Assembly: GCF_000312045.1 (NCBI RefSeq)
Contig: NZ_HE978635.1
Location: 498,674 to 562,673 of the forward strand
Direction of reading: 5' to 3'
From: Noviherbaspirillum massiliense JC206
GTDB lineage: Bacteria; Pseudomonadota; Gammaproteobacteria; Burkholderiales; Burkholderiaceae_D
DNA: 64,000 nucleotides
Shown: positions 14,927-30,868 of the stretch, piece by piece
How positions within the stretch are numbered: position 1 is the first letter of the stretch
How the letters are laid out: each line of letters begins with the position of its first letter
Translations under genes and position numbers: made by a program
Notes under the pieces: model-generated
What the model was told of the DNA's origin: nothing
Databases searched by the model: none
What the model saw: only the letters and a program-made list of their open reading frames with translations

Positions 14927-17560
14927 TTACGCCGCGACCCGCATCGACTGTATGCTCCGCGGGACGACGCCGAGATCGTTCCATGCCTCGGGATGGCAGG
15001 TGAATACCAGGATCTGGTGGCGTTCCTGCGCATCGAGCAGGGCGCGCTTGATCCGGTCGCGCCGAGCGGCATCCGTATGCACCACCGCATCGTCCAGCAG
15101 AAGCAGGGTCGGCACTTGGGCTTCCCGCAGCAGGTCCGCATAGGCGAGGCGGCACAGGATGCCGAGCTGCTCTTGGGTACCGAAGCTCAGTTGCCCGAGC
15201 TGCGCTTCCCAGCCGTTGCGCCTGAAGCCTGCCGGCGACAGCTTGTCGTCGAGTGAAAGACCGGCCTGGGGAAACAGCTTCCTGCAGTAATGCTCCAGGC
15301 GCGACAGCAGCGGCGCCTGCAGACGCTGCACCATCCGGTCGCGCTCTTCCACCAGCAGGTCGGCGAGCAGGGCGAGCGCATCGGCGCGCAGCGCCAGCTC
15401 CTGCTGGCGCCGGCCCAGTTGTTCGAGCGCGGCTTCCGCTTCTGCCAGGCGCTCGCCGAGGCCGGATGCACCCACCTGTTCCAGGCGGGCACCAAGCGCG
15501 ATCAGTTCGCCCTTCTGCCTGTCATGCGCTTCCCTTTGCAACCGGGCAGACCGGGCAAAACGTTCCGCATCGCCTTCATCGACTTCGGTTGCCAATTCTT
15601 CGAGCCGCCTCTTTGCGGCTTCGATCTCGCTCGCGCGCATGCCGGCCGTCGCCAGCGCATCGGCCAGCTCATCCTGGTCTTGCCGCCTCCGCGCCTGCCA
15701 GTCGGTTGCCCCTAGCAGCCTGCGCTTGGCCTCGAGCTGCTCAAAGAGGGAGGAAGTTCTTGCTTCCAGACTGGAGCGCATGCCGATCAATTCGCGGTGC
15801 CGCTGCTCGCATGCCGCGTGGCGCGCAGTGGCTTGCGCGAGCCGCTCCTTCGCTTCCTGCAGGGGCAATGCATGCGCGACGTCCGGCATCGCCGCCAGCA
15901 CGTCCTGCGTCTGCTGCAGGCCGGCCCGAGCTGCGTCGCGCGCGCTTTCGAGCGCATCGATGCCCTTGGGCGCATGAAATTGCAATTGCCGGTTCAGGCT
16001 GTCGAGTTCCCGCTCCAGGCCTTGGTGCGCGAGGAAGCGGCCTTCGGCATCGGCAAGCGTCGATACCCTCAGGGCCAGGAACAGGGCTGCCTGCTCCGCC
16101 TTGCGTTCGCCATGCTGGGCAGACAGGCTCGACAGGTTCGATGCGCCGGGAATGATGGTGACTTCGCCGACGCCCGGAATTTGCAGAACCGCTTTCCCTT
16201 CCAGCAGCTTGTGGCCGCTGCCCTGAAGGATGGCATCGTCCAGGCGCAACGCCTTGCCGTCCGCCAGCCGGTATTCGATGCGAGTGCCGGCGGCATCCAT
16301 CTTCGCCTGCAGGGACGAGAGTTCCGTTTCCAGCGCACGCAGCCGGCGCAGCTTCGCTTCATCGATCCTTGTCTTGCCCGCTTCGGTCTGGACCGACTTG
16401 ATCTGCACTCGAATGGCTTGCGCTTCCCTGAGGCTGTGTCCCAGGCGGTCGAGTTCTTCCTGCTGCCATTGCGCCTTCGCCTGCAAGTCCTTCGCCTGTT
16501 CCGCCGTCTGCGCCAGTTGCAGCTGCTGCCGCGCCTGTTCCACTGCGGCAGCGAAATCGCCCATCGTCCGCAGCTGTTGATCCAGTTCGCCAGCCGCTTC
16601 ATCGGCCGCCTTGCGCGCCTTCGCATGCTCGGCTTCCAAAGTTGCAAACGCTTCGAGGTCCCGGTTCGCATCCAGCTCCCGTTCCCGCAGCAGGCGTATT
16701 TTTTCCCTGCCCGCATTCTGCAGGCTTTCCAGCTGATCGAGCGCGCGCTTGGCGATGCGCAATTCCTCGACCTTGCTGCGCGCATCGGCCGCCTTCTTCT
16801 CCAGCGCTTCCCATGGCTTTTGCCGCGCGACCTGATCGTACTCGGCCTGCAGGCTGGCAAGCCGGTCCACGTCTTCCTCGAACTGTCCCTGCTGGCGGCG
16901 CAACTGCTGCGCCTGTTCGCGTGCCTGGGCGAGCTCGGCTTCGACGGCGGCGAGTTCGCCGGTGGGCTTGCGGATCTTTTCCGTCACGAGCGAATGCAAT
17001 TCCCGATTCACTGCGGCGATCAGCACATCCTCGCCGCTTTCGATCTTCGCCCCCGACAACTGGTTAAGCGCTTCGCGCAGGTAGATCGCCGCATGGGTAA
17101 CGGGCCCGTCGACATCCTGTGCCTGGCCCTGGGTCACCCACAACAGGCCGGGAATGCCGCCATGTTCCGGCGACGCCGAACCGCGTCCCGGGCGCGAGAA
17201 GCGCAGCAGGGCGGCCAATGCTTCTTCCGCTTCTTCGCCTTCCAGCCGGTGGCGGCCATCGTGTATCAGCTCGCAGCGGGCTTTGGTGACGAAGCTCTTG
17301 CGCAGCAGGTAATGCTGCTCGCCGGTGGTGAATTCCACTTCAATGCGCGGTTGTCCGGACGACGCCTGCCACGGCACCAGGTGCTTGAGCGTGCTCGAGC
17401 GGTGTTTTTCGAGGAAGACCGTGCGTACCGCGGTGGCGATGCTGGTCTTGCCGGATTCGTTCGGGCCAGTGAAGATGTTCAGGCCGGGGCTGAGCTCGTC
17501 GATCAGGACCTGGCCGGCGAACTGCTTGAAGTCTTCGATCAGGATGCGCTTGAGTTTCAT
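14927..17560 (-). CDS. SbcC/YhaN-like AAA ATPase without zinc hook
   Basis: An 877-residue SMC/Rad50-type protein. The N-terminus has the Walker A motif GPNESGKTS (residues ~33-41) after DFKQFAGQ. Long coiled-coil arms rich in Gln, Arg, Glu and Ala fill residues ~190-450 and ~510-780. The C-terminal head has LSFGTQEQLG as the ABC signature and LLLLDDAVVHTD as Walker B. I find no CxxC at the apex, so the Rad50 zinc hook is missing, as in Bacillus YhaN. It is also shorter than E. coli SbcC (~1048 residues). It overlaps the nuclease gene by four bases (ATGA) and should act with it in processing of DNA ends or hairpins. Confidence 0.85.
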   Translation of the reverse strand: MKLKRILIEDFKQFAGQVLIDELSPGLNIFTGPNESGKTSIATAVRTVFLEKHRSSTLKHLVPWQASSGQPRIEVEFTTGEQHYLLRKSFVTKARCELIHDGRHRLEGEEAEEALAALLRFSRPGRGSASPEHGGIPGLLWVTQGQAQDVDGPVTHAAIYLREALNQLSGAKIESGEDVLIAAVNRELHSLVTEKIRKPTGELAAVEAELAQAREQAQQLRRQQGQFEEDVDRLASLQAEYDQVARQKPWEALEKKAADARSKVEELRIAKRALDQLESLQNAGREKIRLLRERELDANRDLEAFATLEAEHAKARKAADEAAGELDQQLRTMGDFAAAVEQARQQLQLAQTAEQAKDLQAKAQWQQEELDRLGHSLREAQAIRVQIKSVQTEAGKTRIDEAKLRRLRALETELSSLQAKMDAAGTRIEYRLADGKALRLDDAILQGSGHKLLEGKAVLQIPGVGEVTIIPGASNLSSLSAQHGERKAEQAALFLALRVSTLADAEGRFLAHQGLERELDSLNRQLQFHAPKGIDALESARDAARAGLQQTQDVLAAMPDVAHALPLQEAKERLAQATARHAACEQRHRELIGMRSSLEARTSSLFEQLEAKRRLLGATDWQARRRQDQDELADALATAGMRASEIEAAKRRLEELATEVDEGDAERFARSARLQREAHDRQKGELIALGARLEQVGASGLGERLAEAEAALEQLGRRQQELALRADALALLADLLVEERDRMVQRLQAPLLSRLEHYCRKLFPQAGLSLDDKLSPAGFRRNGWEAQLGQLSFGTQEQLGILCRLAYADLLREAQVPTLLLLDDAVVHTDAARRDRIKRALLDAQERHQILVFTCHPEAWNDLGVVPRSIQSMRVAA

Positions 17561-18675
17561 GGCTTGTTTCCCAGATCGCGGTGGATGCGCGACAGCAGCA
17601 GCAGGGCTTCCGCCGCGGTTTTGCCCCTGGCCGCATCATCCTGCAGCGCCCGCAGGCGCTCGACCACATTTGCGAGGTAGCCACCCTGCGCGCCAAGTTC
17701 CGCCAGGTCCTGCGGCGTCGGCATCAGGCGTATTCCGGTCAGGTCGGCGCGCAACGCGCGGGCGCGGGCCTGAGCGTCGGCGATCGCCGCTTCCAGGCGG
17801 GAAGACGCGGCCAGGTCGAGCGCGCCGCGCACGGTCAGCTGCACCACATCCCGGGTCCCGAGGTCCGCAAGCCTGGCCGTCAGCATCTCGACATCGGACG
17901 CGACCGCGAGCGTCTCATCCCAGCGCTGCCAGTCATACCGGCCGATACGGTGCTCGGACACTTGAGGCAGTGCACGCGGCTCTTCGATTTTCACTTCCAG
18001 CACCATGCCGGAACGGTTTTCGCGGAAGCGGTCGGTCTCCGGCGTGCCGGAATACCAGGTGCGCTCGTTGATCTGGTAGAGGCCGTGCCAGTCGCCTAGT
18101 GCAAGGTAATCAAGCGAGGCGCGCTGCGCCCGCTCCGCTGCAATCGGATTGCCGCCGTCAATGCCTTCCGGCAGCCTTTCCAGCACACTGCCATGCGACA
18201 GTCCGATGCGCACATGGCCCTCTGCCGTAACAGCGCGGTCAAAGAATTCGGTCACGTCATCAAAGGTGCGGCGCTGCGTCAGTGGTGCGGCGAGAATGGA
18301 AAAGCCTTCGTCGAAGGACAGCAGTTGCGGTGCAAGCAGGAGTTTTACGTTGCCAGGAATGCAGTTGAGGCGGAGAGCACGCGTCCATACGCTTTCCGGC
18401 AGCGCCGCATCATGATTGCCGGGAATCATGATCCAGTGCCCGCGAAAACCGGCCAGCGAGGCGAACAGGCGCCGGACCACACGGTCGGTCACCGTCTGCT
18501 GGTCGAACACGTCGCCCGCCACCAGGACCGCCTGCACGCCCAATTGGCTTGCCAGGCGCGCAATGTTTTCCACCGCCTCGAACCGGGCCTCCGCAAGCAG
18601 TGCGGCTTCTTCCGGGCCAAACTGGCCGAATCGCGTGCCTATCTGCCAGTCTGCGGTGTGGAGAAAATGGACCAA
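17557..18675 (-). CDS. SbcD/YhaO-like metallophosphoesterase DNA nuclease
   Basis: A 372-residue calcineurin-type phosphoesterase. The metal motifs are in order: HTADWQIG (Asp/His, residues 6-13), AGDVFD (~54), PGNHD (~85), LSHGS (~160) and LGDWHG (~195). A C-terminal ~120-residue domain probably docks the ATPase. It should be the Mn2+-dependent nuclease subunit of an Mre11/SbcD-like complex whose ATPase is the overlapping downstream gene. The start matches the family N-terminus. The closest organisation known to me is Bacillus yhaO-yhaN. Confidence 0.87.
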   Translation of the reverse strand: MVHFLHTADWQIGTRFGQFGPEEAALLAEARFEAVENIARLASQLGVQAVLVAGDVFDQQTVTDRVVRRLFASLAGFRGHWIMIPGNHDAALPESVWTRALRLNCIPGNVKLLLAPQLLSFDEGFSILAAPLTQRRTFDDVTEFFDRAVTAEGHVRIGLSHGSVLERLPEGIDGGNPIAAERAQRASLDYLALGDWHGLYQINERTWYSGTPETDRFRENRSGMVLEVKIEEPRALPQVSEHRIGRYDWQRWDETLAVASDVEMLTARLADLGTRDVVQLTVRGALDLAASSRLEAAIADAQARARALRADLTGIRLMPTPQDLAELGAQGGYLANVVERLRALQDDAARGKTAAEALLLLSRIHRDLGNKP

Positions 18676-18957
18676 GCTGCACTCCTCTGTTTCTGATCAC
18701 CCGAATATATCAAATCGGGGAGGGCTTGCGAATTGGGCACAGATGAGCTTTAACGTAACCCGACCTTGGCGATTTTTGTTTAATGGAGGGATCGCCGGTA
18801 GAGGGATCGAAAGCCTGGGAAGCGCGGTCATGTAATTCTTCATTGCAGCGTCTTTTACCGCAATCCCTCTTACCATGCCGCTACTGTCACGGGAGTCCGT
18901 GTCATTGGTTAGCGATATATGCATTTATGGTGGGAGGCGTTTATGCAGCGTCCCCTA

Positions 18958-18973
18958 TATCGATATGTCGATA
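18958..18973. promoter_or_regulatory. Inverted repeat TATCGA-N4-TCGATA
   Basis: Perfect six-base arms with a four-base spacer, about 190 bases upstream of tpsB. The size fits a dimeric regulator half-site pair, but no regulator is identified. Confidence 0.4.
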
Positions 18974-19028
18974 AGTGCTGACCTTTCCCGCCTCATCTGC
19001 ACAAGCACCTATCAACCGCTCTCTCATG

Positions 19029-19049
19029 TTTATGGGATAGCGCCATAAA
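19029..19049. promoter_or_regulatory. Inverted repeat TTTATGG-N7-CCATAAA
   Basis: Perfect seven-base arms and a seven-base spacer, about 113 bases upstream of tpsB. It could be an operator or a short stem. It is one of three symmetric sites clustered in this leader. Confidence 0.4.
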
Positions 19050-19071
19050 GATGACTTGGATACGCTTCACC

Positions 19072-19087
19072 CATTTTTGCAAAAATG
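19072..19087. promoter_or_regulatory. 16-base perfect palindrome CATTTTTGCAAAAATG
   Basis: A gapless palindrome 75 bases upstream of the tpsB ATG, in an AT-rich stretch where a promoter would be expected. It is a plausible operator for the tpsB-tpsA operon; the regulator is unknown. Confidence 0.45.
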
Positions 19088-19161
19088 CAAATGAAATAGG
19101 GCGGACGTCTGCGCACTCTTGAACAGGGCATATGCAACGACCGCTAAATTCTGCGTAAGAC

Positions 19162-21003
19162 ATGGTTCATCTGACGATCAAGCCTGCAAAGAAAAAATTG
19201 TCTGTACCCGGCGCAAATACCGGTCGGTCGAACACTCGGACTGTTGGGCCAGTGTCGACCGCTGCTCCATCCAGCATGTGTTCGTCAATTGCACTGGTAT
19301 TTGCTTCAATCGCCATGCCAAATGCGGCCGTGGCGCAGACCGCGCCACCTGGTCCATCATCGGTACAGGCGATTGAAGAAGGCCTGCGCCGGGAAGAAGC
19401 CCGAATGAAGGAATTGCAGCAACAGGTGCAACCCAAATCCGATGTGCTGCAAGCAACACCCCAAGTCGCCGCGCCGATGGCACTTCCAATCGAGACGCCG
19501 TGCTTTCCCATTGAGGAAGTCCAGTTCACCGGCAACCATGTCGGACGGTTTCGTTGGCTGCAGACTACCGTGCAGCCTTACCTGGGACATTGCGTCGGAG
19601 TCGTCGGCATACGCCAGATCGCCGCAGCATTGGATGCCACCCTGATCAATTGGGGATATGCCACGACCCGGGTCTCGCTACCGCAGCAGAATCTCAAGTC
19701 CGGTGTCCTGACCTTTCATCTGCACGTAGGTCGGGTAGCCGAGGTGCGCATGGTGAAGGCCGATGATCCGAAAACATCCGACGATGCATGGGGAACCTGG
19801 TGGAATGCGTTCCCCACCGGCCGCAAAGACATTCTGAATGTGCGTGACCTGGAACAGGGCGTGGAACAGATGAAGCGGGTACCAAGCCAGACGGTCGCCA
19901 CCGAGCTGGAACCGGGAACGGATCCGGATACGAGCATCGTGAAAATCCTGCGCAAGCCGGGCAGCTTATCCGACCGTGTACGCGGAGGCATCACGCTGGA
20001 CAATTCAGGCAACGAGGTATTGGGAGCGACCCAATTGTCGACCTATCTGTCTCTCGACAACGTGCTGGGTATCAGCGACATTTTTTCGATCTCGGCCAAT
20101 ACCAATGCTGAGCATCCCGACAGCGACCACCGCAGTCAAAGTGCCGCATTCAATTACAGCATCCCCTGGGGGTACAACACCTTCACGCTCAACAAAACCA
20201 ACAGCCGCTACGCACAGGTGGTGCAGGGAACGACCACACGCTTTCTTTCCAGCGGCACGAGTCAGTCCGCCCAATTTCGCTGGGATCGCGTAATGCTGCG
20301 CACCAGCGCTGCCAAGACAGGCGTGTATGCGGCTGTTGTCACCCGGCGCGCCAAGAGCTTTCTGGATGATGTGGAACTGATCGTGCAGCGGCGGCGCACA
20401 ACCAGTCTGGAAACCGGCGTCGCCTACAAGCAGTTGATTGGGCAAGGTAGTGTGGATTTCGAGATCGGCTATCGGCGCGGCATGCCGTGGCAAGATGCCC
20501 AGGAGGATTTTCCGACAGCCGCGACCGGCGGGCTGACGACACGCCCCACCATCTGGGGGCTATCCGCCGCCTACAGCCAACCGTTCAACATCGGGAAAAC
20601 CCCTGCGCAATACACCGCAGTCCTGCGCGGACAACATACTCGTGACACGACATTGACGATCGACCAGATCGCAATCGGCAACCGCTTCAGCGTGCGCGGT
20701 TTTGATGAAAACAGCCTGCTGCTTGCCGAGAGCGGCTACTTCTTGCGCAACGACTGGCTCGTGCCCGTCAAGCTGGTGACTGAGTTTGACGCCGCTGCCT
20801 ATGTCGGGATCGATATCGGCCGGGTTTGGGGAGCAAGTGCGGGCAATCTGGTTGGTACCAAGCTCGCCGGCGCCGCTGCTGGAGTGCGCGGCAAGTGGAA
20901 GCAGCTCCAGTTCGACTTTTCTGCCGGCACGCCCTTATACAAGCCGGAAGGCTTCCGAACCAAGTATTGGAATCCCTATCTGTCTGCAACCTACGCATTT
21001 TGA
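19162..21003 (+). CDS. TpsB outer-membrane transporter (FhaC/ShlB/CdiB family)
   Basis: A 613-residue two-partner secretion pore. An extended N-terminal region ends in a signal peptide (IALVFASIAMPNAAVAQ, cleavage about residue 58). A linker helix rich in Glu/Gln (EEGLRREEARMKELQQQ) follows, then POTRA domains (FPIEEVQFTGNH at ~115 onward). A 16-strand beta-barrel carries the VRGF motif (VRGFDEN, about residue 513) and ends in Phe, the outer-membrane insertion signal. The N-terminus before the signal is unusually long, so translation may start further in, for example at the Met near residue 39. It lies just upstream of tpsA and should export it. Confidence 0.9.
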   Translation: MVHLTIKPAKKKLSVPGANTGRSNTRTVGPVSTAAPSSMCSSIALVFASIAMPNAAVAQTAPPGPSSVQAIEEGLRREEARMKELQQQVQPKSDVLQATPQVAAPMALPIETPCFPIEEVQFTGNHVGRFRWLQTTVQPYLGHCVGVVGIRQIAAALDATLINWGYATTRVSLPQQNLKSGVLTFHLHVGRVAEVRMVKADDPKTSDDAWGTWWNAFPTGRKDILNVRDLEQGVEQMKRVPSQTVATELEPGTDPDTSIVKILRKPGSLSDRVRGGITLDNSGNEVLGATQLSTYLSLDNVLGISDIFSISANTNAEHPDSDHRSQSAAFNYSIPWGYNTFTLNKTNSRYAQVVQGTTTRFLSSGTSQSAQFRWDRVMLRTSAAKTGVYAAVVTRRAKSFLDDVELIVQRRRTTSLETGVAYKQLIGQGSVDFEIGYRRGMPWQDAQEDFPTAATGGLTTRPTIWGLSAAYSQPFNIGKTPAQYTAVLRGQHTRDTTLTIDQIAIGNRFSVRGFDENSLLLAESGYFLRNDWLVPVKLVTEFDAAAYVGIDIGRVWGASAGNLVGTKLAGAAAGVRGKWKQLQFDFSAGTPLYKPEGFRTKYWNPYLSATYAF

Positions 21004-21044
21004 CGATGATCCTGAAACAAGGCATGGGATCGGAAAGGCCCGAT

Positions 21045-24000
21045 ATGAACTGGCAACGGCACCTTCTCTGGACAAACGGCACTGTTGAGTCTACGTATGT
21101 GCCTGTAAGCACGCGAGCCTGGGTCAGGCAAGTCGCCCGGGCGATCGCGATGCTGATGCTGGCCCAGAGCACGCTGCCGGCTTTCTCGCAATCGACGGCG
21201 CCGGTCGTGCCCAATGCAAATGCGCCGGCCGGGCAGCGGCCGATCATGGATGCAGCGTCCAACGGCGTGCCGATCGTGCATATTGCACCGCCAAGCGCGG
21301 CAGGCGTATCACGCAATGAATATACGCAGTTCAATGTCAACCCGAACGGGCTGATCCTTAACAACAGCACGGTCAACACCCAGACCCAGCTGGGCGGATG
21401 GGTTACGAGCAATCTGCAGCTTGGGCCGGTGCCAGCTCGCATCATTCTCAATGAAGTCGTCAGCACCAATCCCTCGCAATTGCGCGGCACGATGGAAGTG
21501 GCGGGGCAACGCGCGGACATCGTGCTTGCCAACCCGAACGGCATCACCTGCGACGGCTGTGGATTTCTTAACACCGGCCGTGCCAGCCTTTCCACCGGCC
21601 GAGCACAATTCGGCGGCGATGGTTCGATACAAAGCTTCGACGTGCGCCAGGGACAGCTCACCGTCGGCAGTAACGGACTCAGTGCCACCAATGCCGAGCA
21701 GCTTGATCTCATTGCGCGCGGTTTGGTGATCGAAGGCGAGATCTGGGCAAAGAACCTTAACGCCATCACCGGTGCCAACCGGGTGCTTTACGGCTCCTTA
21801 CAGGCAAGCGCACAAAGCGGCACGGGTGCCGTGCCCGGCTTCGCCATCGACATCAAGAATCTGGGCGGCATGTATGCCAATCAGATCTACCTGGTGGCAA
21901 CCGAAAAGGGCCTGGGCGTCAACAGCGCCGGCCGAACCGCTGCCCTGCAAGGGAATCTTGTGCTGTCTGTCAATGGGGATCTCAGCCTGAGAGACAGCTA
22001 TGCGAAAAAGAATGTTCACATTGACAGTTCCGGGAATATCCAGCTTTCTGGCCAGACCCAGGCCGAAGGCGCTGGGGCCATAAATGCCAGCGGCGATCTC
22101 AGCAATCAAGGCACTGTCGACGTACAAAGTCAGCTTGTGATTAAGGCGGCCGCAATCAGAAATATCGGCACCGTCGCCCAGCGCAATGCCGATGGAGCAT
22201 CGCTTAAGACAGCCGGTGCGATTAACAATAGCGGCGCGATCTATAGTGGCGGCACGCTGGTGGCTACCGGCCGTTCGCTGAAAAATGATGCTGGCAAAAT
22301 CACTGCCGCCCTCGATCTGCAGCTGACAAATCAAGGACTGTCAAACGACCAGGGCTTGCTGCAATCAGGACGAGACGCCAGCATCAATACGCAGGGACAA
22401 GTCCTCGTCAACACCAACAGCGGCACAACCGGCGGCATACTCGCCGGTGGCACACTGAATCTGGCAGCAGGCAGTTTGGATAATAGGGCTGGATTCATTG
22501 CCAGTAACGGTAGCCAGGTGTTGAGTGTGACGGCCGATATCGACAACGGTCAGGAAGGAAAGATCCTGGGGAATTCGGACAGCACGATCACGGCAACCAG
22601 AATCTTGAACAGCGCCGGCCTGATCAGCTCGCTCGGCAAAGCGAAGCTTACTGCCGACACACTGGAGAATCGGAGCGGGCAGCTTAGTGCCGGCAACGAC
22701 AGTCAGCTGCAACTGGCAATGTTCGACAATACCAGCGGTGTGCTCACCTCCACGAAAAATCTCGACCTCGCCGCAAACAGCCTTGTCAATGACAGCGGAA
22801 AGCTAATTGGCGATGAGTCGGTGACGATCCAGACCAGCAGCCAGGCGCCTGGAGGCACGATTGCCTCGGCCAATAATGTGACGCTCACTGTCAATGGCGA
22901 CTACAGCAATGCCGGTCTCCTGTCGGCGCAAAAGAATCTGACCGTTAATGCGAGCAACATCCACAACAGCGGGACGCTCACTGCCGGCCAGGCACTTACT
23001 GCCAATACCGGCAATCTTGCCAACTCCGGCGAGATCAGCGCCAACAATCTGCTGCTGAATCTGACCGGGACGCTATCGAATGCCGGTGCCGGGTTGATCG
23101 ACGGCGGCGACACGCGTATTGACGCGGCGACTACCAACAACACCGGCCGCATTTATGGTGACAGGCTGCGCATTGCCGGCGGCACGCTCAACAATAGCCG
23201 CAATGGCGCGATCGCCGCACGCGATACCTTGCTGATCAGCGTGCAGAATTTGAACAATACAGAGGGTGGCCTGATTTACAGTAGCGGTGACATCGAGATG
23301 GCCGGCAGCTTCGATAGCGCAGGCCAGCCGCAGGGAGCGATGCAAAACCTGATAAACGCATCAAGCACTATCGAAGCCGGGCGCAACCTGAGCATTTCCG
23401 CGGTTAGCATCGTGAATCGCAATGACCATTTGACGACTCGGACGGTAGTGGATGGCTCATGGTCCGAAGACAAGATCGAGCCGCGCAGCTCGGGAACCCG
23501 CTATTCGATCGAACATTGCTGGGGCATCGGAGGCGGGCAGGACAACAATTCCTGCATCGTGCATCCCGACCGATATGGCCAACGCAGCACGATACTTCCG
23601 GCACGTTCGGAGAGCTGCGACATTGATGGCAATTGCGCCATGGTACCCAATTACAGTTGGGATTCCCCGGTGTTTGCCCAGTTCCAGATTGCTCCGGTCG
23701 GTCCGCCGCCAGCACAACCCCCTTCCTGCGGGATCTTCGTGCTAGGCGCGGCATGCAGTCAATGGCAATCTGAACTGGTCGCGTGGGATGCGCAATACCA
23801 GAACACCTTGAATCAGCTCACGCCCCGGATTGATGCGTACAATGCTCAGGTCAATGAAGACAATCGGACAGTTAACTTTGAGGATTACACCTGGTACAGG
23901 GTCATCCGCACCGACAGTCACACTCAAGTAGCTAGCAGTGCGCCGGGCCAGATACTCGCCGGTGCCAAGATCATGCTGACTGGCGCCGGCATCGGCAGCA

Positions 24001-27000
24001 CGGTCATCAATAGCGACAGTCATATCGTGGCCGGTGGCGTACTGGAAGTGAACGGCTCGTCGGTATCCAACCAGGCAACCAAAGGTGAAATTCGCTCGGA
24101 CTACAATGCCACGCGAGAGGACACCGAGGTCGTGTCCTGCGGAACATTCGGTAACAAGCATTGCCGTAAATGGTATGGACAAAGCCCGTACCCTATACAG
24201 GCAAAGGTGGATAAGTCTCAGGACCTGCCGACGATACGCTATGACCAATATGCCGGCAACGCGACATCGGGACGGGTGCTGACAGGTGCTGCCGCCAGCG
24301 CCGATAACAGTACGGCGCCCGTAATTATGCCCTCCGCTGGCAGCAGTCGGGACTTGCCACTGCTTGGCCCGACAAGCCGCCTGTTTGCCTTGCATGCCGA
24401 GCCTGCAGCCCTCTATCTGGTAGAAACCGATCCGCGCTTTACCAATTACCGTACTTTCCTTAGCTCCGACTATTTCCTGAATGCGCTCAATCGCGATCCG
24501 TCGCATCAGATCAAACGCTATGGCGACGGCTTCGCCGAACAGCAGCTCGTCAATGACCAAATTCTCGCCTTGACTGGGCGGCGCTACTTGAGCGGCTATG
24601 CCAGCACGGAAGATGAATACAAGGCGCTGATGAATGCCGGCGTCGCCTTCGCCAGGCAATATCGGCTTACGCCCGGAGTGGCATTGACGGCTGAGCAGAT
24701 CGCTCTTCTGAGTACCGATATTGTCTGGCTGGTCACGCGCACAGTCGCCTTACCCGATGGCTCGAACCAGGACGTGCTCGTACCTCAGGTCTATCTGCGC
24801 CGCCCGACCAGCATAGATCTAATGCCAAACGGGGCGCTGATAGCGGCCAACAATGTCCGCATCACCACCGCAGGCGATCTAGTCAACAAAGGCACGATCG
24901 CCGGCGACAGCGTCACTATCGAGGCCGACAACGATCTGGTCAACCAGCAAGGCCATATCGGCGGTCATGACATCTGGATGCACGCTAGTAATGACCTGAA
25001 GAACCTGTCCGGCGTCATCGGCGGCACTGGTGCGAATTCGCTAGTTAACCTGCTTGCGGGAAGGGACATGCTGCTGCAAACCCAGACCGTGCAGACGGCT
25101 AGCAAGGATGGCAACAGCACCCGCACCAACGTGCAACGCGTGGCTACCATACAGGGTGGCGATGTGCAGCTGGAAGCCGGACGCGATCTTGCCATTGCGG
25201 GCGCTATTGTGAATGCGAAGCAGAACCTGATAGCAACGGCTAGCGAGATCAAGGTGACGGCCGTGGCCGGGGGACAGCGGATCGAGGCCCAGGGCATAAG
25301 TGGCCGCAGTATCCGCGAGGATGCTGACAAAACCGAAGGCGGCCAGGTGCCTGCCTCGCGTACCGCCTACTCTAGAGAAGAGCAAATCGCCAACCAGTTG
25401 GCAACGCTCAATTCCGGCAACAACGTGGTGCTCGCCGCCACCGGCAACGTCGGTATTCAGGGTGCGAATATTGCCGCCGGCCAGGCCGGATCGGGTGAGG
25501 TGCAGATCCAGGGGCAGAGCGTCATCATTGAATCGACCAAGGACCGTTCAGCGACCGACACACAGTTCATCGGTGCCAAGAGTTACACGCGGGGGGCGCG
25601 TGATGATGAAACCTTGGTTGGCGGCTCCATCACGGCCGCCGACAATGTCGCGATCCGCGCAACCGGCGCGCCTGCTATCCGGGTTTATAACAATGATGGC
25701 AGCCATGCCGGTGATGACAACGGCGGTCCGGCTGTAGGGAATGTTGGTGGCGACATTGCGCTCACGGGAGTGGCAATCGCCGCGCAAAAGGGGCAAGTAG
25801 CGCTGACCGCCAACAACGACATCGTGGTTCAGAACGGCACGGCACGCCATCTGACCATCGATGAGAGCTACAGCAAGAGCGGCAATATGCTGCGCACCAC
25901 GGCAACCACGAGGTCAGACTACGTCGATGCCATGCAAGTGCAAGGCAGCAGCGTCAGCGGCAATACCTTCGTGGCGCAGGCGATCCATGATCTGACCGTG
26001 CAAGGAAGCTCCGTGGCTGGCGACGGCGATGTGACGCTGGCAGCAGGTAACAACGCATCCATTATTGCGGCCATCGGTACCCGCACAGAAAGCCACTACA
26101 CCAAGGTCAAGGAAGACGGTTTCCTGAGCGGTGGTGGGTTCGGCATCACCTATGGTGAGCGGATCACCACGACGGATCAGAACCAGCGAGCAACGACCCA
26201 GAGCGGCCAGTCGCGCAGCCTCGTTGGCTCCAATGGCGGCAACCTCAATGTGCAGTCTGGGGCCGCGGTGAAGGTCAGCGGCAGCGACATCGTCGCCGCA
26301 CAGGATGTCGATATCACTGGCAAGAGCGTCACGATCGATCCGGGACGCGACACTACAGACGGCAAGCTGACGTATCGGATGCAACAGGATGGCCTGACGC
26401 TAGCGGTCGGCGGGACCGTCGTAAACGCTATCCAGACCATGCAGGCGATGGACGACGCGGCCGGCAACACCGGCAACTCGCGCGTGAAGGCACTGGCCGC
26501 CGCCACGGCGGCGATGGCTGCTGCCAATGCGGCCAAGGACGTTGCAACGAATGGCGTGAGTGTCAGCATTAGTCTGACAGTTGGTCATTCGGAAACTGAG
26601 CAGACCCGTACTCACTCTGCTAGCAACGCTGTCGGTAGCACGGTCGTGGCCGGCAACGACCTTAACATTCGCGCCACGGGCGACGGTAAGGCAAGCAACA
26701 TCCATGTGATCGGCAGCGACCTCTCCGCTAATAACAATGTCAATCTCGTTGCCGAACATGAGGTCAACTTTCTGGCGGCGCAGGACCTGGAGTCGCAGCA
26801 CAGCAAAAGCAAGAGCATGAGTGCGGCCGCTGGGGTCGCCATCTCGGCCAGCACCAATGGAGGCATTGCCCTAGGCGTGACCGGCAGCGTTGGCATGGGA
26901 CGCAGCCAGGAAGATGGCGAAGGCGTCACCCAGCGCAACACGCATGTGACAGCCGGCAACCAGTTAGCGATCAGGAGTGGCGGCGCTACCAACATCAAAG

Positions 27001-28634
27001 GTGGCGTGGTGAGCGGAAAAGAAGTCCATGCCGACATCGGCGGCGACCTGAACATCGAAAGCCAGCAGGATACGGCACAGTTTGACAGCATGAGCCAGAG
27101 CGCCAGCGTGAGCGCGACGGTAGGCTATGGTGCCAGCGTCAGCGCCAGCTACAGTCAGAGCAAGATCCGCAACGATTATGCCAGCGTGCAGGAGCAAAGC
27201 GGCATCCAGGCTGGCGATGGAGGCTTTGATATTGTGGTCAAGGGCAATACCGACCTGAAGGGCGGCATCGTCAGCAGCAGCCAGACGGCAATCGAAAACA
27301 ACAAGAACCGTCTGACTACGGGTACGCTGACAGTCAGTGATATTCAGAATTATTCCAACGCTAGCGCCGATACGGTGGGAATCAGTGCCAGTGCCAGCAT
27401 CTCAGGCGGTAATGATAAGGAAGGTGGCCGAGAAAAAGGCCCGGGTAAAACCAATCTGATCAATGCCGGGAGTGGGCCGAATGTCACGGATGGAAAATAC
27501 GAAGCCGGCAAGACCATATTGGGCAATCTGCTTAACAATGGCGCCGAATCAGGATCATCGTCCGGCATAACCCGCAGCGCGATCGGCACCGGAACAATCA
27601 CCATCACAAATGCTGCGGAACAGTGGAATGCTTCAGAAAGGGACGCTGCGGATGTGATCGCATCGATTCGCCGCGAAACCGCGGGTACGAACGAAACGGT
27701 AAAGAAACTGAATGTGCAGCAAATGGCCACTGATGCGCAGATTCGGCAGGCATTCAATCAGGCAGTTTTTCAGGAGGCAGCCAAATTTACCGATGAGTCA
27801 TACCGCAAGATGTTTCTTGAAAAGGCTAAGGTGTACGAGATTTTGAAGGATGGAAATGGAAAACCTCTTTTGAATGATGACGGTACGCCCTTGATGCGGG
27901 AACTTTCGAACGCCGAAAAGCGCAACCTGAAGGCCGGGTCGGATGGCGTTGTTCACATCGCCAATAACGGCATTTTCAACGACGGCGATGCAGCATCAAA
28001 ATACGCCAATCAGCATAGCTCGGTCCAGGGAGCTCAGTATCTCATTCACTTCCCGGAGGCGGACAACATGATTTCCGAGCTTTTGATTGCTGGCTATCAG
28101 AAGTTTTTGGAAAATGACCTGTTGGGATTGGCGAATGCGACCGCGGAGACTAAAAGAATGATGCTCGAATATGGCCAGACGGGACTGCATATTGACGGTC
28201 ACAGTCGCGGCGCGCTAACGACCGGCAATGCGCTGGAATCACTTAACCGACAACCGGACGCACAGGGAATCTTGAGCGGTACAACAATCAATTTCTATGG
28301 TCCTGCCTACAATGCAGAAAAGGCAGATGCCATCCTGAGCAACCTGCAGAATCGCGAAGCGGTTAGTGTCCTCGCGCAAAAGAACGGGATGGTCCTGCAA
28401 ATGCAGAATCACCAGGCGGATCCCGTAGGGAGGCTATTCTTCATTGGTAACAATCCGAGTACGGGAGGTACGATTCCTGAGGGGAGCAACGTAGCTAAGG
28501 AAGCTATCAATGCATTGGGAGGGGAGTTTACAGTTCATAACTGCTACGGAAATGGAGATGCACGATGCCAAAAGTTCTGGCAGACGTATCCTGATTCAGT
28601 GCCCCAACTAAAGCCCGTAAAGAACTATCCATAA
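21045..28634 (+). CDS. Giant TpsA exoprotein, filamentous-hemagglutinin/CdiA-like, with predicted alpha/beta-hydrolase C-terminus
   Basis: About 2529 residues from the ATG at 21045 (GGAAAGG upstream; the ATG at 21006 is an alternative). Order: extended signal region (residues 1-50); TPS domain with NVNPNGLILNNS (~98) and ANPNGITCDGCG (~162); beta-helical FHA-1 repeats to ~790; a cysteine/proline-rich non-repeat block (~815-1050); the conserved YLVETDPRFTNYRTFL segment (~1120-1260); FHA-2 repeats to ~2120; a pretoxin-like ITRSAIGTGTITIT segment (~2180). The variable C-terminus has GHSRG (Ser2387), an Asp in QADPVG (2459) and a His in TVHNCYG (2498), arranged like a lipase triad. It is exported by the adjacent TpsB. 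Base composition becomes AT-richer in the last kilobase. The toxin role is inferred. Confidence 0.88.
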   Translation: MNWQRHLLWTNGTVESTYVPVSTRAWVRQVARAIAMLMLAQSTLPAFSQSTAPVVPNANAPAGQRPIMDAASNGVPIVHIAPPSAAGVSRNEYTQFNVNPNGLILNNSTVNTQTQLGGWVTSNLQLGPVPARIILNEVVSTNPSQLRGTMEVAGQRADIVLANPNGITCDGCGFLNTGRASLSTGRAQFGGDGSIQSFDVRQGQLTVGSNGLSATNAEQLDLIARGLVIEGEIWAKNLNAITGANRVLYGSLQASAQSGTGAVPGFAIDIKNLGGMYANQIYLVATEKGLGVNSAGRTAALQGNLVLSVNGDLSLRDSYAKKNVHIDSSGNIQLSGQTQAEGAGAINASGDLSNQGTVDVQSQLVIKAAAIRNIGTVAQRNADGASLKTAGAINNSGAIYSGGTLVATGRSLKNDAGKITAALDLQLTNQGLSNDQGLLQSGRDASINTQGQVLVNTNSGTTGGILAGGTLNLAAGSLDNRAGFIASNGSQVLSVTADIDNGQEGKILGNSDSTITATRILNSAGLISSLGKAKLTADTLENRSGQLSAGNDSQLQLAMFDNTSGVLTSTKNLDLAANSLVNDSGKLIGDESVTIQTSSQAPGGTIASANNVTLTVNGDYSNAGLLSAQKNLTVNASNIHNSGTLTAGQALTANTGNLANSGEISANNLLLNLTGTLSNAGAGLIDGGDTRIDAATTNNTGRIYGDRLRIAGGTLNNSRNGAIAARDTLLISVQNLNNTEGGLIYSSGDIEMAGSFDSAGQPQGAMQNLINASSTIEAGRNLSISAVSIVNRNDHLTTRTVVDGSWSEDKIEPRSSGTRYSIEHCWGIGGGQDNNSCIVHPDRYGQRSTILPARSESCDIDGNCAMVPNYSWDSPVFAQFQIAPVGPPPAQPPSCGIFVLGAACSQWQSELVAWDAQYQNTLNQLTPRIDAYNAQVNEDNRTVNFEDYTWYRVIRTDSHTQVASSAPGQILAGAKIMLTGAGIGSTVINSDSHIVAGGVLEVNGSSVSNQATKGEIRSDYNATREDTEVVSCGTFGNKHCRKWYGQSPYPIQAKVDKSQDLPTIRYDQYAGNATSGRVLTGAAASADNSTAPVIMPSAGSSRDLPLLGPTSRLFALHAEPAALYLVETDPRFTNYRTFLSSDYFLNALNRDPSHQIKRYGDGFAEQQLVNDQILALTGRRYLSGYASTEDEYKALMNAGVAFARQYRLTPGVALTAEQIALLSTDIVWLVTRTVALPDGSNQDVLVPQVYLRRPTSIDLMPNGALIAANNVRITTAGDLVNKGTIAGDSVTIEADNDLVNQQGHIGGHDIWMHASNDLKNLSGVIGGTGANSLVNLLAGRDMLLQTQTVQTASKDGNSTRTNVQRVATIQGGDVQLEAGRDLAIAGAIVNAKQNLIATASEIKVTAVAGGQRIEAQGISGRSIREDADKTEGGQVPASRTAYSREEQIANQLATLNSGNNVVLAATGNVGIQGANIAAGQAGSGEVQIQGQSVIIESTKDRSATDTQFIGAKSYTRGARDDETLVGGSITAADNVAIRATGAPAIRVYNNDGSHAGDDNGGPAVGNVGGDIALTGVAIAAQKGQVALTANNDIVVQNGTARHLTIDESYSKSGNMLRTTATTRSDYVDAMQVQGSSVSGNTFVAQAIHDLTVQGSSVAGDGDVTLAAGNNASIIAAIGTRTESHYTKVKEDGFLSGGGFGITYGERITTTDQNQRATTQSGQSRSLVGSNGGNLNVQSGAAVKVSGSDIVAAQDVDITGKSVTIDPGRDTTDGKLTYRMQQDGLTLAVGGTVVNAIQTMQAMDDAAGNTGNSRVKALAAATAAMAAANAAKDVATNGVSVSISLTVGHSETEQTRTHSASNAVGSTVVAGNDLNIRATGDGKASNIHVIGSDLSANNNVNLVAEHEVNFLAAQDLESQHSKSKSMSAAAGVAISASTNGGIALGVTGSVGMGRSQEDGEGVTQRNTHVTAGNQLAIRSGGATNIKGGVVSGKEVHADIGGDLNIESQQDTAQFDSMSQSASVSATVGYGASVSASYSQSKIRNDYASVQEQSGIQAGDGGFDIVVKGNTDLKGGIVSSSQTAIENNKNRLTTGTLTVSDIQNYSNASADTVGISASASISGGNDKEGGREKGPGKTNLINAGSGPNVTDGKYEAGKTILGNLLNNGAESGSSSGITRSAIGTGTITITNAAEQWNASERDAADVIASIRRETAGTNETVKKLNVQQMATDAQIRQAFNQAVFQEAAKFTDESYRKMFLEKAKVYEILKDGNGKPLLNDDGTPLMRELSNAEKRNLKAGSDGVVHIANNGIFNDGDAASKYANQHSSVQGAQYLIHFPEADNMISELLIAGYQKFLENDLLGLANATAETKRMMLEYGQTGLHIDGHSRGALTTGNALESLNRQPDAQGILSGTTINFYGPAYNAEKADAILSNLQNREAVSVLAQKNGMVLQMQNHQADPVGRLFFIGNNPSTGGTIPEGSNVAKEAINALGGEFTVHNCYGNGDARCQKFWQTYPDSVPQLKPVKNYP

Positions 28635-28657
28635 ATTTAGTCGGTATAAGAAAGAGC

Positions 28658-28987
28658 ATGCTAAAAAGAACCCTTCTTTTGATTTTTATAGCGTTTGAAT
28701 TGAATGCATGCATTATAAAACCGCTTCAACCTACACCAGCGACATTCACATTATGGAAAAAAAAGGACGGATCAATTGGCGAAGTAAAGTCTTCGCTTTT
28801 GGCTTGTGGCTTCAATAGTCCATACACGACGTTTGGAATGACCGAAAATGCTTATGCAGAAGCAGAGCTTTGCATGCTGGACAGGGGTTTTGTAAACACT
28901 TCAAGGGATGGAATTTTATGTAATCAGATTGAATACAAAAAGCGCTTGCCGGCTTGTCAGGTAAGGGAGGAAGCTCAACGCAAGTGA
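28658..28987 (+). CDS. Small lipoprotein, immunity candidate for the TpsA C-terminus
   Basis: A 109-residue protein with a lipoprotein signal ending in the lipobox LNAC (Cys about residue 18). The mature part has four more cysteines (ACGF, LCML, LCNQ, PACQ) and a WKKKDGS start that I associate with small lipoproteins near secreted toxins. The gene follows tpsA by 23 bases with an AAGAAAGAG site and is clearly AT-richer than the chromosome around it. Lipid-anchored periplasmic proteins are the usual immunity factors for lipase effectors. The position supports that role here; sequence alone does not prove it. Confidence 0.65.
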   Translation: MLKRTLLLIFIAFELNACIIKPLQPTPATFTLWKKKDGSIGEVKSSLLACGFNSPYTTFGMTENAYAEAELCMLDRGFVNTSRDGILCNQIEYKKRLPACQVREEAQRK

Positions 28988-29056
28988 CGAATTGCAAAGA
29001 CACCGAGCAGGGAAATTTGTTAGCGAATTAGGTTTAATTAAATTTTAAAAAAATCG

Positions 29057-29650
29057 ATGAAGTCACTTATCGCAACTCTTGTTCTGATTACGCTCTCTGG
29101 TTGTGCTAACCGAATCTTCGATGTAAAAGGTGAGCCAAAATATGACCCTAGCATAAACGCGAGGATGCGGGTCAGGGGGAATATGACGCTGCATTTTGGA
29201 AATGCATGCGAATTGGCGACATGGACTCCTGTCGGAAATATCACGCGGGTTGTTAGCGATGCCAAAACGCTCTTCGTTCCTGCAACAGGATTTTTGTACC
29301 AAAACAAAACGCTTGGCATGCCCGTAGCGAGCGAGGGAAGCGCGACATCGTCCTTCCACGAGATTGTCCTACCCACCGGCAAGCCGCTTGCCCTGTCTGC
29401 GATCTTCAATCAGGGAAGCCTCAGGTGCGGTCCGGTCTCAGGAAAATTCTGGCCGCAAGCCGGGCATGACTATGAAGCGGACTTTTATATCAACAACGAC
29501 CGTAAATGCTTGCTGGAAGTCGAAGAGTTGATTGCGGCGAACGGAAGGATTACCAGATCTTCTGTTCCTCTCGTTCCGCTGGAGACCGCTTCTACCAGTT
29601 CGCCAAATCCAAAATGCGAATTCGCGTCGGGTCAGATGCCAGGCAATTGA
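29057..29650 (+). CDS. Lipoprotein of unknown function, second immunity candidate
   Basis: A 197-residue protein with a signal peptide and lipobox LSGC (Cys about residue 15). The mature domain is rich in beta-strand character and contains five cysteines (FGNACEL, LRCGP, RKCLLE and one near the C-terminus). It follows the smaller lipoprotein gene on the same strand after an AT-rich 69-base gap that lacks a good ribosome site. It belongs to the same low-GC block as the tpsA 3' end, which suggests they moved together. It may bind the effector, modify the envelope or be a passenger. No family recognised. Confidence 0.6.
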   Translation: MKSLIATLVLITLSGCANRIFDVKGEPKYDPSINARMRVRGNMTLHFGNACELATWTPVGNITRVVSDAKTLFVPATGFLYQNKTLGMPVASEGSATSSFHEIVLPTGKPLALSAIFNQGSLRCGPVSGKFWPQAGHDYEADFYINNDRKCLLEVEELIAANGRITRSSVPLVPLETASTSSPNPKCEFASGQMPGN

Positions 29651-29812
29651 GGTTCTATCGCAGCCCGGTATATCTTGGTGCTTTCAAAGATAGTGAGGAA
29701 GCGATAATGCCTGCTGTGAAATGATTGCCCTGACCGTATAGTCACTATTTACAGGTTCGCGACTATCTCCCCACAACACAAAATGAAATGCAGGGGACTG
29801 CCTCCCGCACCG

Positions 29813-30868
29813 TTAATTCACTTGCAACCGCGCCTCCGTCACACCGCTCAACCCAAACACAAAATCCTTCCCCATCAACCTCGCCGGCGTCCAGGTGCCG
29901 CATTCCTTGCGTCCCTCCAGAAAGCTGCGAACGATGGAAAGAGCGCCGTCGACGGTCAGGGCATAGCCGCTCGGGGTGGTGAAGCGCACTGTTGCCGTCT
30001 TGCCCGATGCGTTGCGCGCTTCGCCCCAGATATAAGTGCGCAGCTTTTCCATCGCTGTCTGGTCCGGGCCCTTCACCTTCTTTTCGATCTGGCGGCTGAG
30101 CGCTCCCTTGATCAGCCGGGAACGCAGGAGCGGGCGCATCAGGTTGGCTACCTTGGCCGCGCGAATCGCTGCGGGCGCGGCTGGGATATAGGTGGTGATG
30201 TCGGGGATGCCGGTGGTGTAAAACGCGGAAGATACGTCACCCCAGGGAATCGACATGGCCAGTCTCTCACCCTTGCCGAAATCGATGCGGCGCACCGCAT
30301 AGGCAAAGGGCACGCGCAGCATCTCGCCGCGGCGCCGGACCCAGCCGCCGTCTCCGAGGCCTTCGACCGCGGTCTTGGCGGTGCCCGGGGATAGTTCATT
30401 GCCGGCCTGGAAGCCGAGCGACAGTTCGGTCGCATCCGGCAGCGTTTCCTTGAGGAGCAGGGCGGCACAATCGGTCGGCACCACGTCGAAGCCGACGCCC
30501 GGGCAGATCACGATGCCGGCGGCCCGCGCGCGTTCGTCGAGCCGCTGCGCGGCTTCGAACACGGCGATCTCGCCGGTGATGTCGAAGTAATGCGCACCGG
30601 CTTCGAGGCAGGCTTCCATCATCGGTGCCGCGGTACGGATGAATGGGCCGGCGCAGTTGAGGACCACATCGATGCCGCGCAAGTCGTGTTCGGCTTCGGA
30701 ATCGAAGCCGAGGTCGAAGATCCGCGATTCCAGCTGCAGCTCCTCGGCTAAGGGAAGAATGGCCGTGGGATTGCGACCGGCGAGTACGGGCGCGAGGCCC
30801 AGGTGTACTGCCTGTCGTGCGATCAGGCGCCCGGTATAGCCGTTCGCGCCGTAGATGAGCCACTTCAT
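29813..30868 (-). CDS. Saccharopine dehydrogenase-like NADP-binding reductase
   Basis: A 351-residue protein with an N-terminal Rossmann fold (YGANGYTGRLIA, residues 6-17; VLAGRNP at ~31; NCAGPF at ~71) of the Sacchrp_dh_NADP type. The C-terminal domain resembles the trans-acting enoyl-reductase/short saccharopine-dehydrogenase-like proteins and not lysine-pathway enzymes. The substrate is unknown; a lipid or polyketide intermediate is possible. A GGAGGGA site precedes the ATG. The gene is divergent from the CueR-type promoter and convergent with the lipoprotein at 29057-29650. Confidence 0.75.
   Translation of the reverse strand: MKWLIYGANGYTGRLIARQAVHLGLAPVLAGRNPTAILPLAEELQLESRIFDLGFDSEAEHDLRGIDVVLNCAGPFIRTAAPMMEACLEAGAHYFDITGEIAVFEAAQRLDERARAAGIVICPGVGFDVVPTDCAALLLKETLPDATELSLGFQAGNELSPGTAKTAVEGLGDGGWVRRRGEMLRVPFAYAVRRIDFGKGERLAMSIPWGDVSSAFYTTGIPDITTYIPAAPAAIRAAKVANLMRPLLRSRLIKGALSRQIEKKVKGPDQTAMEKLRTYIWGEARNASGKTATVRFTTPSGYALTVDGALSIVRSFLEGRKECGTWTPARLMGKDFVFGLSGVTEARLQVN

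Follow-up and report, generated by a model that had tools for sequence, protein, structure and literature searches.

Background

Contact-dependent growth inhibition (CDI) by CdiBAI proteins and the meningococcal TpsA/TpsC/IORF systems share a TpsB/TpsA pair, an FHA-2 region, a swappable C-terminus, an immunity gene directly downstream and orphan cassettes (PMC9086364, PMC3848433, PMC11630599; here and below, statements on cited papers refer to the parts of them that were available). Most CDI toxins characterised so far are nucleases or ionophores, which need to reach or cross the inner membrane (PMC9086364, PMC11630599). According to the published model, CdiA keeps its C-terminal half in the periplasm of the producer and releases it later in that of the target (PMC11630599). 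Here we describe a locus of this kind from Noviherbaspirillum massiliense JC206, found in a stretch of 64,000 nucleotides of contig NZ_HE978635.1 (positions 498,674 to 562,673; hereafter the window), in which TpsA ends in a predicted lipolytic hydrolase and is followed by two lipoprotein genes.

Lipase toxins with lipoprotein immunity are known from two other secretion routes. Tle1/Tli1 and Tle3/Tli3 of the type VI secretion system (T6SS) combine a lipase effector acting in the periplasm with an outer-membrane lipoprotein as immunity protein, and Tle3 has an alpha/beta-hydrolase fold (PMC9860674). In TslA/TilA the toxin is a phospholipase A, and a lipoprotein whose copy number varies neutralises it (PMC10730906). 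As read here, the window's module resembles both, but differs from the T6SS-delivered Tle/Tli in that the enzyme is fused to TpsA beside its TpsB, and from TslA/TilA, which has a Gram-positive type VII system (T7SS), the reverse domain order and DUF576 immunity.

Three alpha/beta-hydrolase toxin families were predicted by Zhang et al. in 2012 (PMC3482391). Tox-ABhydrolase-2 has the motif string NG, [DE], [KR], HSxG, D, H, and is reported with the type V secretion system (T5SS) and FilH repeats, mostly in proteobacteria. Tox-ABhydrolase-3 has GHSxG, is found on FilH and RHS proteins and was predicted to be a lipase. The first-pass annotation of the window had called a lipase-type tip less well described among CDI toxins; this has to be qualified by the listing of a predicted Tox-ABhydrolase class in 2012 (PMC3482391), which gives the idea a precedent. 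The word "lipase" is absent from the available main text of two CDI reviews (PMC9086364, PMC7662968), a review of two-partner secretion (TPS; PMC5422565) and papers on Acinetobacter CDI (PMC6336857), a CDI ionophore (PMC11630599) and meningococcal TpsA (PMC3848433). By title and start of abstract, no lipase-tipped CdiA or TpsA with lipoprotein immunity was seen among the open-access matches listed, which is a weak absence.

Architecture of the TpsB/TpsA locus

We put at about 0.75 the probability that the locus encodes a two-partner-secreted, CDI-like polymorphic effector with a lipolytic serine hydrolase as toxin and a lipoprotein as immunity protein. By sequence and prediction, this builds on the TpsB/TpsA pair, a swappable tail, a fold with invariant Ser, Asp and His, co-varying cysteines and a lipoprotein gene linked to the tail; from these we infer the delivery, substrate, toxicity and immunity of the module.

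19162..21003, + strand: tpsB, outer-membrane transporter of FhaC/ShlB type, 613 aa (Pfam ShlB E 1.6e-90, POTRA_2 9.8e-19, POTRA_3 1e-14)
21045..28634, + strand: tpsA, 2529 aa (Pfam TPS E 3.7e-49, Fil_haemagg_2 3.5e-43, Fil_haemagg 4.8e-05)
27564..27749, + strand: pre-toxin module of TpsA (GITRSAIGTGTITIT...; profile A5), common to TpsA-like frames with quite different tails

With a TPS domain in TpsA and an adjoining TpsB, both recognised by Pfam, the locus belongs to type Vb (two-partner) secretion. TpsA consists of a signal region, the TPS domain, haemagglutinin repeats, an FHA-2-type region, the pre-toxin module and the hydrolase tail; residues are numbered from the ATG at 21045, although the open frame opens further upstream, at 20826. 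The G+C fraction is 0.58-0.60 in the rest of tpsA, 0.51 in the pre-toxin module, 0.50 in the tail and 0.41 and 0.51 in the first and second lipoprotein gene (window 0.60), and such a fall from the tpsA body to the tail and lipoprotein genes is expected of an exchanged cassette. No T6SS domain was detected in the Pfam scan that could link the locus to VgrG, PAAR or Hcp delivery; TpsA has TPS and haemagglutinin domains.

Catalytic residues of the tail

27948..28634, + strand: predicted cutinase/phospholipase-A1-like alpha/beta-hydrolase tail, residues 2302-2529
28203..28205, + strand: Ser2387, predicted nucleophile, in GHSRG (starts at residue 2385), 61/61 rows of alignment A4
28419..28421, + strand: Asp2459, predicted catalytic acid, in QADPVG (starts at residue 2457), 61/61 rows of A4
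28536..28538, + strand: His2498, predicted catalytic base, in TVHNCYG (starts at residue 2496), 61/61 rows of A4

A pattern scan based on a three-row alignment, run over one genome per species (84,980 species), gave 153 stretches, 66 of which encode relatives of the tail at 64 loci. Alignment A4 contains 61 tails, namely that of the window, 56 from the 64 scan loci and four from genome searches (L010, L014, L017, L018). A length rule left out L047, L051, L053, L058, L060, L070, L072 and L080. Also unused were L003, L004, L005, L015 and L016, which are fragments or cover the pre-toxin alone. L002, L011, L012 and L013 were unused too, since by length and sequence their contigs seem identical to those of L081, L077, L071 and L082.

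Eight columns of A4 are invariant (G135, A143, E171, S213, R214, A247, D285 and H324), and we propose S213, D285 and H324 as catalytic; these three are still invariant among 32 representatives at 70% identity. The first-pass annotation had placed the three motifs at exactly these residues, had likened their order to that of an alpha/beta-hydrolase triad and expected homologous tails to keep them, as the aligned tails do. A chance match was considered and rejected, all three being invariant in 61 rows. As the scan patterns lie around NGIFN and ELLIAGY (the NGI and ELL..GY stretches), elsewhere in the domain, the invariance of the triad is not an artefact of the search. The Ser, Asp and His motifs are also present in seven of the eight tails left out by length (in L070 as HSCG); in the frame-broken L053 they lie in the second open frame.

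The nucleophile elbow G-x-S-x-G is present, with Ser in 61/61 and the second Gly in 59/61 rows of A4. The first Gly of GHSRG is substituted in some relatives, giving SHSRG, AHSRG or EHSRG, and L082 reads NQSRS. Arg214 is not universal, because the more distant tails of genomes G025 and G072, outside A4, read AHSGG. The NQSRS of L013/L082, together with relatives that are frame-broken or orphan pieces (L053, L003), could indicate a decaying or inactive tail retained merely as a scaffold, but the reading frame of the window is intact with all invariant residues in place, and we consider this explanation very improbable.

Cys2500 and Cys2508 are the sole cysteines of the window's tail (A4 columns 326 and 334). 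Both are present in 56/61 rows, neither in 5/61 and a single one in none (Fisher p 1.7e-7, kinship ignored). This all-or-none pattern suggests a disulfide and, with it, an oxidising compartment. The tail has no strongly hydrophobic entry segment, the highest 19-residue hydropathy being 0.63.

Predicted fold and likely substrate

An alpha/beta-hydrolase fold, as the first-pass annotation had proposed, is predicted for the tail by the structure model and its structural matches, Foldseek on its own being weak. In the model a strand (207-212) and then a helix (214-227) flank Ser213. The best structural matches are cutinases, and the longest structural alignments are with phospholipase A1 (PLA1) and pancreatic lipase-type enzymes. 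In a viral fold library a DUF676 protein was the one match at E <= 0.001, and several further rows were named esterases, lipases or alpha/beta-hydrolases. It should be noted that the first AlphaFold2 (AF2) model, made from 10 sequences, had a pLDDT (predicted local distance difference test) of 69.6 and was later replaced.

Searches by sequence were less informative. The 61-row profile aligns HSRG with GYSQG of cutinase 4psc (E 0.0091), and gave only borderline esterase matches among PDB sequences, including an acetyl xylan esterase. No credible family was found for the window's tail by Pfam, NCBIfam, PADLOC and PHROG (scattered weak matches), nor for the 61 tails by Pfam and NCBIfam; phmmer against PDB sequences returned a single weak, unrelated match, and the plasmid collection none.

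The motifs of Tox-ABhydrolase-2 all fall on conserved columns of A4 (N134 60/61, G135, E171, K179 59/61, H212 59/61, S213, G215 59/61, D285 and H324), a likeness to the published motif string and not an alignment with the 2012 family. NG and E lie inside the scan patterns, but were near-invariant already in 10 rows from other searches. Zhang et al. list Imm-SUKH for this family (PMC3482391), while the neighbours here are lipoproteins without a SUKH match; the model of the tail aligns with cutinase and PLA1. Tox-ABhydrolase-3 differs in its Imm66/Imm69 immunity and in delivery by the type II secretion system (T2SS), T6SS, T7SS or Tc and not by T5SS (PMC3482391), and the window's lipoproteins match no Pfam immunity family.

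The same effector-immunity module, with the lipoprotein still as immunity protein, might act on another ester, such as acyl or acetyl groups on lipopolysaccharide (LPS), lipoprotein or peptidoglycan. A fold does not define the substrate, the top structural matches are cutinases, which act on non-phospholipid esters, an acetyl xylan esterase is among the profile matches, and Zhang et al. assigned no substrate to Tox-ABhydrolase-2. However, the longest structural alignments are those with PLA1 and pancreatic lipase-type enzymes, and periplasm-facing lipoprotein immunity is a known pattern of phospholipase effectors. We regard a substrate other than phospholipid as possible but unlikely.

The first lipoprotein and its linkage to the tail

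28658..28987, + strand: type-1 lipoprotein, 109 aa, lipobox-like LNAC, starting 24 bases past the tpsA stop
29057..29650, + strand: second lipoprotein, 197 aa, LSGC, recurrent partner of the module

The two genes directly after tpsA, as first annotated, are present; the lipoboxes of both proteins were called by eye. We suggest that the first is the probable cognate immunity protein, judging from its occurrence across loci. A first rule required a lipobox-like Cys after a hydrophobic stretch and a start <=60 bases from the tail stop. This rule finds a lipoprotein gene next to the tail at 54/64 loci, with its start at -4 in 25 of these; the slightly laxer rule of the control below, also applied to the 64 loci, gives 57/64. 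The position directly 3' of the tail, where an immunity gene is expected, is in this sense occupied by a lipoprotein-like gene. The first rule missed a secreted homologue at +12 to +17 in L037, L038, L039, L043 and L052; L053 has its lipoprotein gene after the second piece of the broken frame, and L031 stops at a contig end.

The 54 proteins, the five missed homologues and the window's own make 60 adjacent proteins. In profile searches 51 of them form one family seeded by the window's first lipoprotein, seven a second family of ~300 aa (L075, L077-L082), and two (L071, L073) fall in neither. Six of the seven loci with the ~300-aa family are in A4, and have the tails least similar to the window's (19-26% identity). 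An alignment of 24 type-1 members shows full or nearly full conservation of the lipobox Cys and of four cysteines in the body. Two or more type-1 genes occur in the fetched DNA of 23/64 loci, and genome G665 carries a run of them in which an orphan tail piece is embedded.

The type-1 profile and the second lipoprotein gave only chance matches among PDB sequences. Pfam, with no SUKH or other immunity family, matched neither the window's lipoproteins nor the 24 of 51 type-1 members scanned. A PHROG family of unknown function (phrog_21928) matches the window's first lipoprotein (E 2.3e-7) and 17 of 24 type-1 lipoproteins (best E 3.3e-67), so that prophage-borne immunity is possible as judged by these profiles; no match was found in a phage collection (two members searched) or in viral contigs (three members). 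Weak, longer relatives of the first lipoprotein occur on two Rahnella plasmids, with no TpsA annotated nearby (the annotation is incomplete).

In L019-L021 (Pseudomonas) the adjacent lipoprotein is 208-211 aa long and apparently contains two tandem type-1 domains. A small lipoprotein starting with GCLTMSG or ACVTMSG recurs beside modules in unrelated genomes (L114 of G665, L034, L041, L043).

Other tails behind the same pre-toxin module

Of 300 genomes of the order searched with profile A5, 20 have the pre-toxin module, at 29 places. As control we used 17 of these, picked for another tail and for downstream DNA; the remaining 12 comprised the window itself, two loci already known to have hydrolase tails, places at contig ends or with short or broken frames, and second matches. 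No lipoprotein-like gene lay within 60 bases of the stop at 16/17 other-tail loci, where the near genes lack a lipobox and two encode membrane proteins by eye (L144, L158). The sole exception, L156 (G053), has a tail with AHSLG and a cysteine-containing lipoprotein at -4, and from its sequence is possibly a further branch of the same class. By the control's rule a lipoprotein neighbour is found for 57/64 hydrolase tails versus 1/17 other tails (Fisher p 1.1e-10, kinship ignored). Further, a TpsA of the same genus (G774) is 50% identical over the FHA-2/pre-toxin query, then continues into another tail and a neighbour without a signal.

Variable tails thus follow a conserved body and pre-toxin module, both in G774 and at the 17 other-tailed loci, as in polymorphic toxins. 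Since the lipoprotein neighbour is absent from 16/17 control loci and from G774, the lipoprotein is tied to the hydrolase tail and not to the TpsA body; that it is usual for any TpsA with this pre-toxin module was rejected at 1/17. The effector-immunity reading of the first-pass annotation gains support from this comparison.

Some lipases require dedicated membrane-bound foldases. The tail could be a surface or extracellular esterase serving adhesion, nutrition or action on a eukaryotic host, with the lipoproteins as folding or display helpers, and some relatives do come from host-associated Bartonella and Pasteurellaceae. The passengers of type Va and Vd secretion include lipases and esterases (PMC6555100), and Burkholderia CDI has an accessory lipoprotein, BcpO (PMC9086364, PMC7662968). 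What speaks against such a role is that different lipoprotein families, unlinked in profile searches, occupy the same position, that lipoprotein genes can stand in runs and some tail genes lack most or all of the TpsA body, that 16/17 control loci lack the neighbour, and that relatives are found also in environmental Pseudomonas, Collimonas and Sulfuricurvum. We consider it improbable.

The second lipoprotein

The family of the second lipoprotein was found at 17/64 loci, starting 67-1076 bases past the tail stop (frame as called), with an extra copy at 2314 in L027. These are the Variovorax locus L076 and all but one of the 17 Pseudomonas/Collimonas/Herbaspirillum loci, the exception being L031, where the contig stops too soon to include it. 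In G025, G072 and G206 it stands after lipoproteins that by eye resemble the ~300-aa family, behind hydrolase tails or pieces of them. Equal tail specificity of the two lipoproteins was rejected, as the family of the second also follows other tails and stands alone. The earlier proposal of two immunity partners accordingly holds for the first, which behaves as a cognate immunity gene, and less so for the second, recurrent but less specific; from its distribution it may be a second (back-up) immunity protein or an accessory protein.

Distribution

Tail searches matched 5/399 genomes of the order, 6/369 of the class and 3/100 near relatives, the own genome counted each time; of the five order-level matches two are pre-toxin only and one is an end piece only. 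Within the near-relative set, 14 further genomes belong to the window's own genus, and none of them has the tail. The 64 scan loci include Pseudomonas, Collimonas, Herbaspirillum, Variovorax, Bartonella, Pasteurellaceae, and Neisseria, Sulfuricurvum and Desulfobulbus/Desulfocapsa metagenome-assembled genomes (MAGs). The window's tail is 65-67% identical to those of L019-L021 (Pseudomonas), L022 (Collimonas) and L023 (Herbaspirillum).

In Bartonella, six loci (L047, L051, L053, L058, L060, L070) have hydrolase-tail frames with <120 residues ahead of the tail, and lipoprotein genes are repeated at many loci. Such arrangements suggest orphan toxin-immunity arrays.

Around the window's locus, an Rfam scan of 18500-30000 was empty and a promoter/terminator scan gave chance level only. 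Upstream of tpsB, on the minus strand (14927-18675), lies a pair whose sequence resembles an SbcC/SbcD- or YhaN/YhaO-like ATPase and nuclease.

Proposed mechanism and its weighing

Upon contact, the FHA-2 region would hand the tail into the periplasm of the target, where it would fold, form its disulfide and cleave acyl esters of membrane phospholipids, with no need for cytoplasmic entry. Following the published CDI model, the producer would store the C-terminal half in its periplasm until it fires, and the lipoprotein encoded at 28658-28987 would shield it, probably at the inner face of the outer membrane. As CDI proteins are stored in one periplasm and released in another, a lipase would meet membrane lipids in both cells, which would explain a periplasm-facing lipoprotein as immunity protein, the paired cysteines and the lack of a hydrophobic entry segment. 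It seems somewhat more likely than not, though less so than the effector-immunity module as such, that this is a widespread and so far undescribed CDI class whose toxin stays out of the cytoplasm, a periplasm-acting, disulfide-bonded TpsA phospholipase whose outer-membrane lipoprotein immunity also guards the producer against its own stored toxin.

Several observations weigh against the reading as a lipolytic effector with lipoprotein immunity. LYN is a pre-toxin motif type of CdiA/BcpA, and neither LYN nor VENN occurs in the 2529-aa TpsA, the lack of VENN also setting it apart from CdiBAI; nor did a pre-toxin Pfam model match it at E <= 1. The best Foldseek match in the PDB is at E 1.1e-3, just short of the 0.001 limit, with low whole-model TM-scores, and the modelled fold alone leaves the substrate undefined. 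Next to the tails of L042 and L050 there is no lipoprotein gene, and next to that of L076 apparently just a broken frame, while the family of the second lipoprotein is found downstream of other-tailed TpsAs (L108, L109; two loci of G788) and away from any TpsA (L112, L113; two loci of G235). The 64 loci are not independent, with several per genome and many from Bartonella or Pseudomonas. Finally, Zhang et al. report no specific lipase relationship for Tox-ABhydrolase-2 (PMC3482391).

Conclusion

The CDI/polymorphic-toxin kind of the locus was already known and its enzyme class was predicted in 2012; the present analysis adds a predicted lipase-type structure and, from comparison with a control, a candidate tail-specific lipoprotein. 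If the proposed reading is true, a function would be assigned to a domain predicted in 2012, and CDI would extend to membrane lipids, with no need for an inner-membrane entry step. Type V secretion would join T6SS and T7SS as a third route to lipase toxins with lipoprotein immunity. The toxin-immunity pairs, whose lipoprotein families have no Pfam match, would be directly testable in Pseudomonas, Collimonas, Herbaspirillum and other genera.

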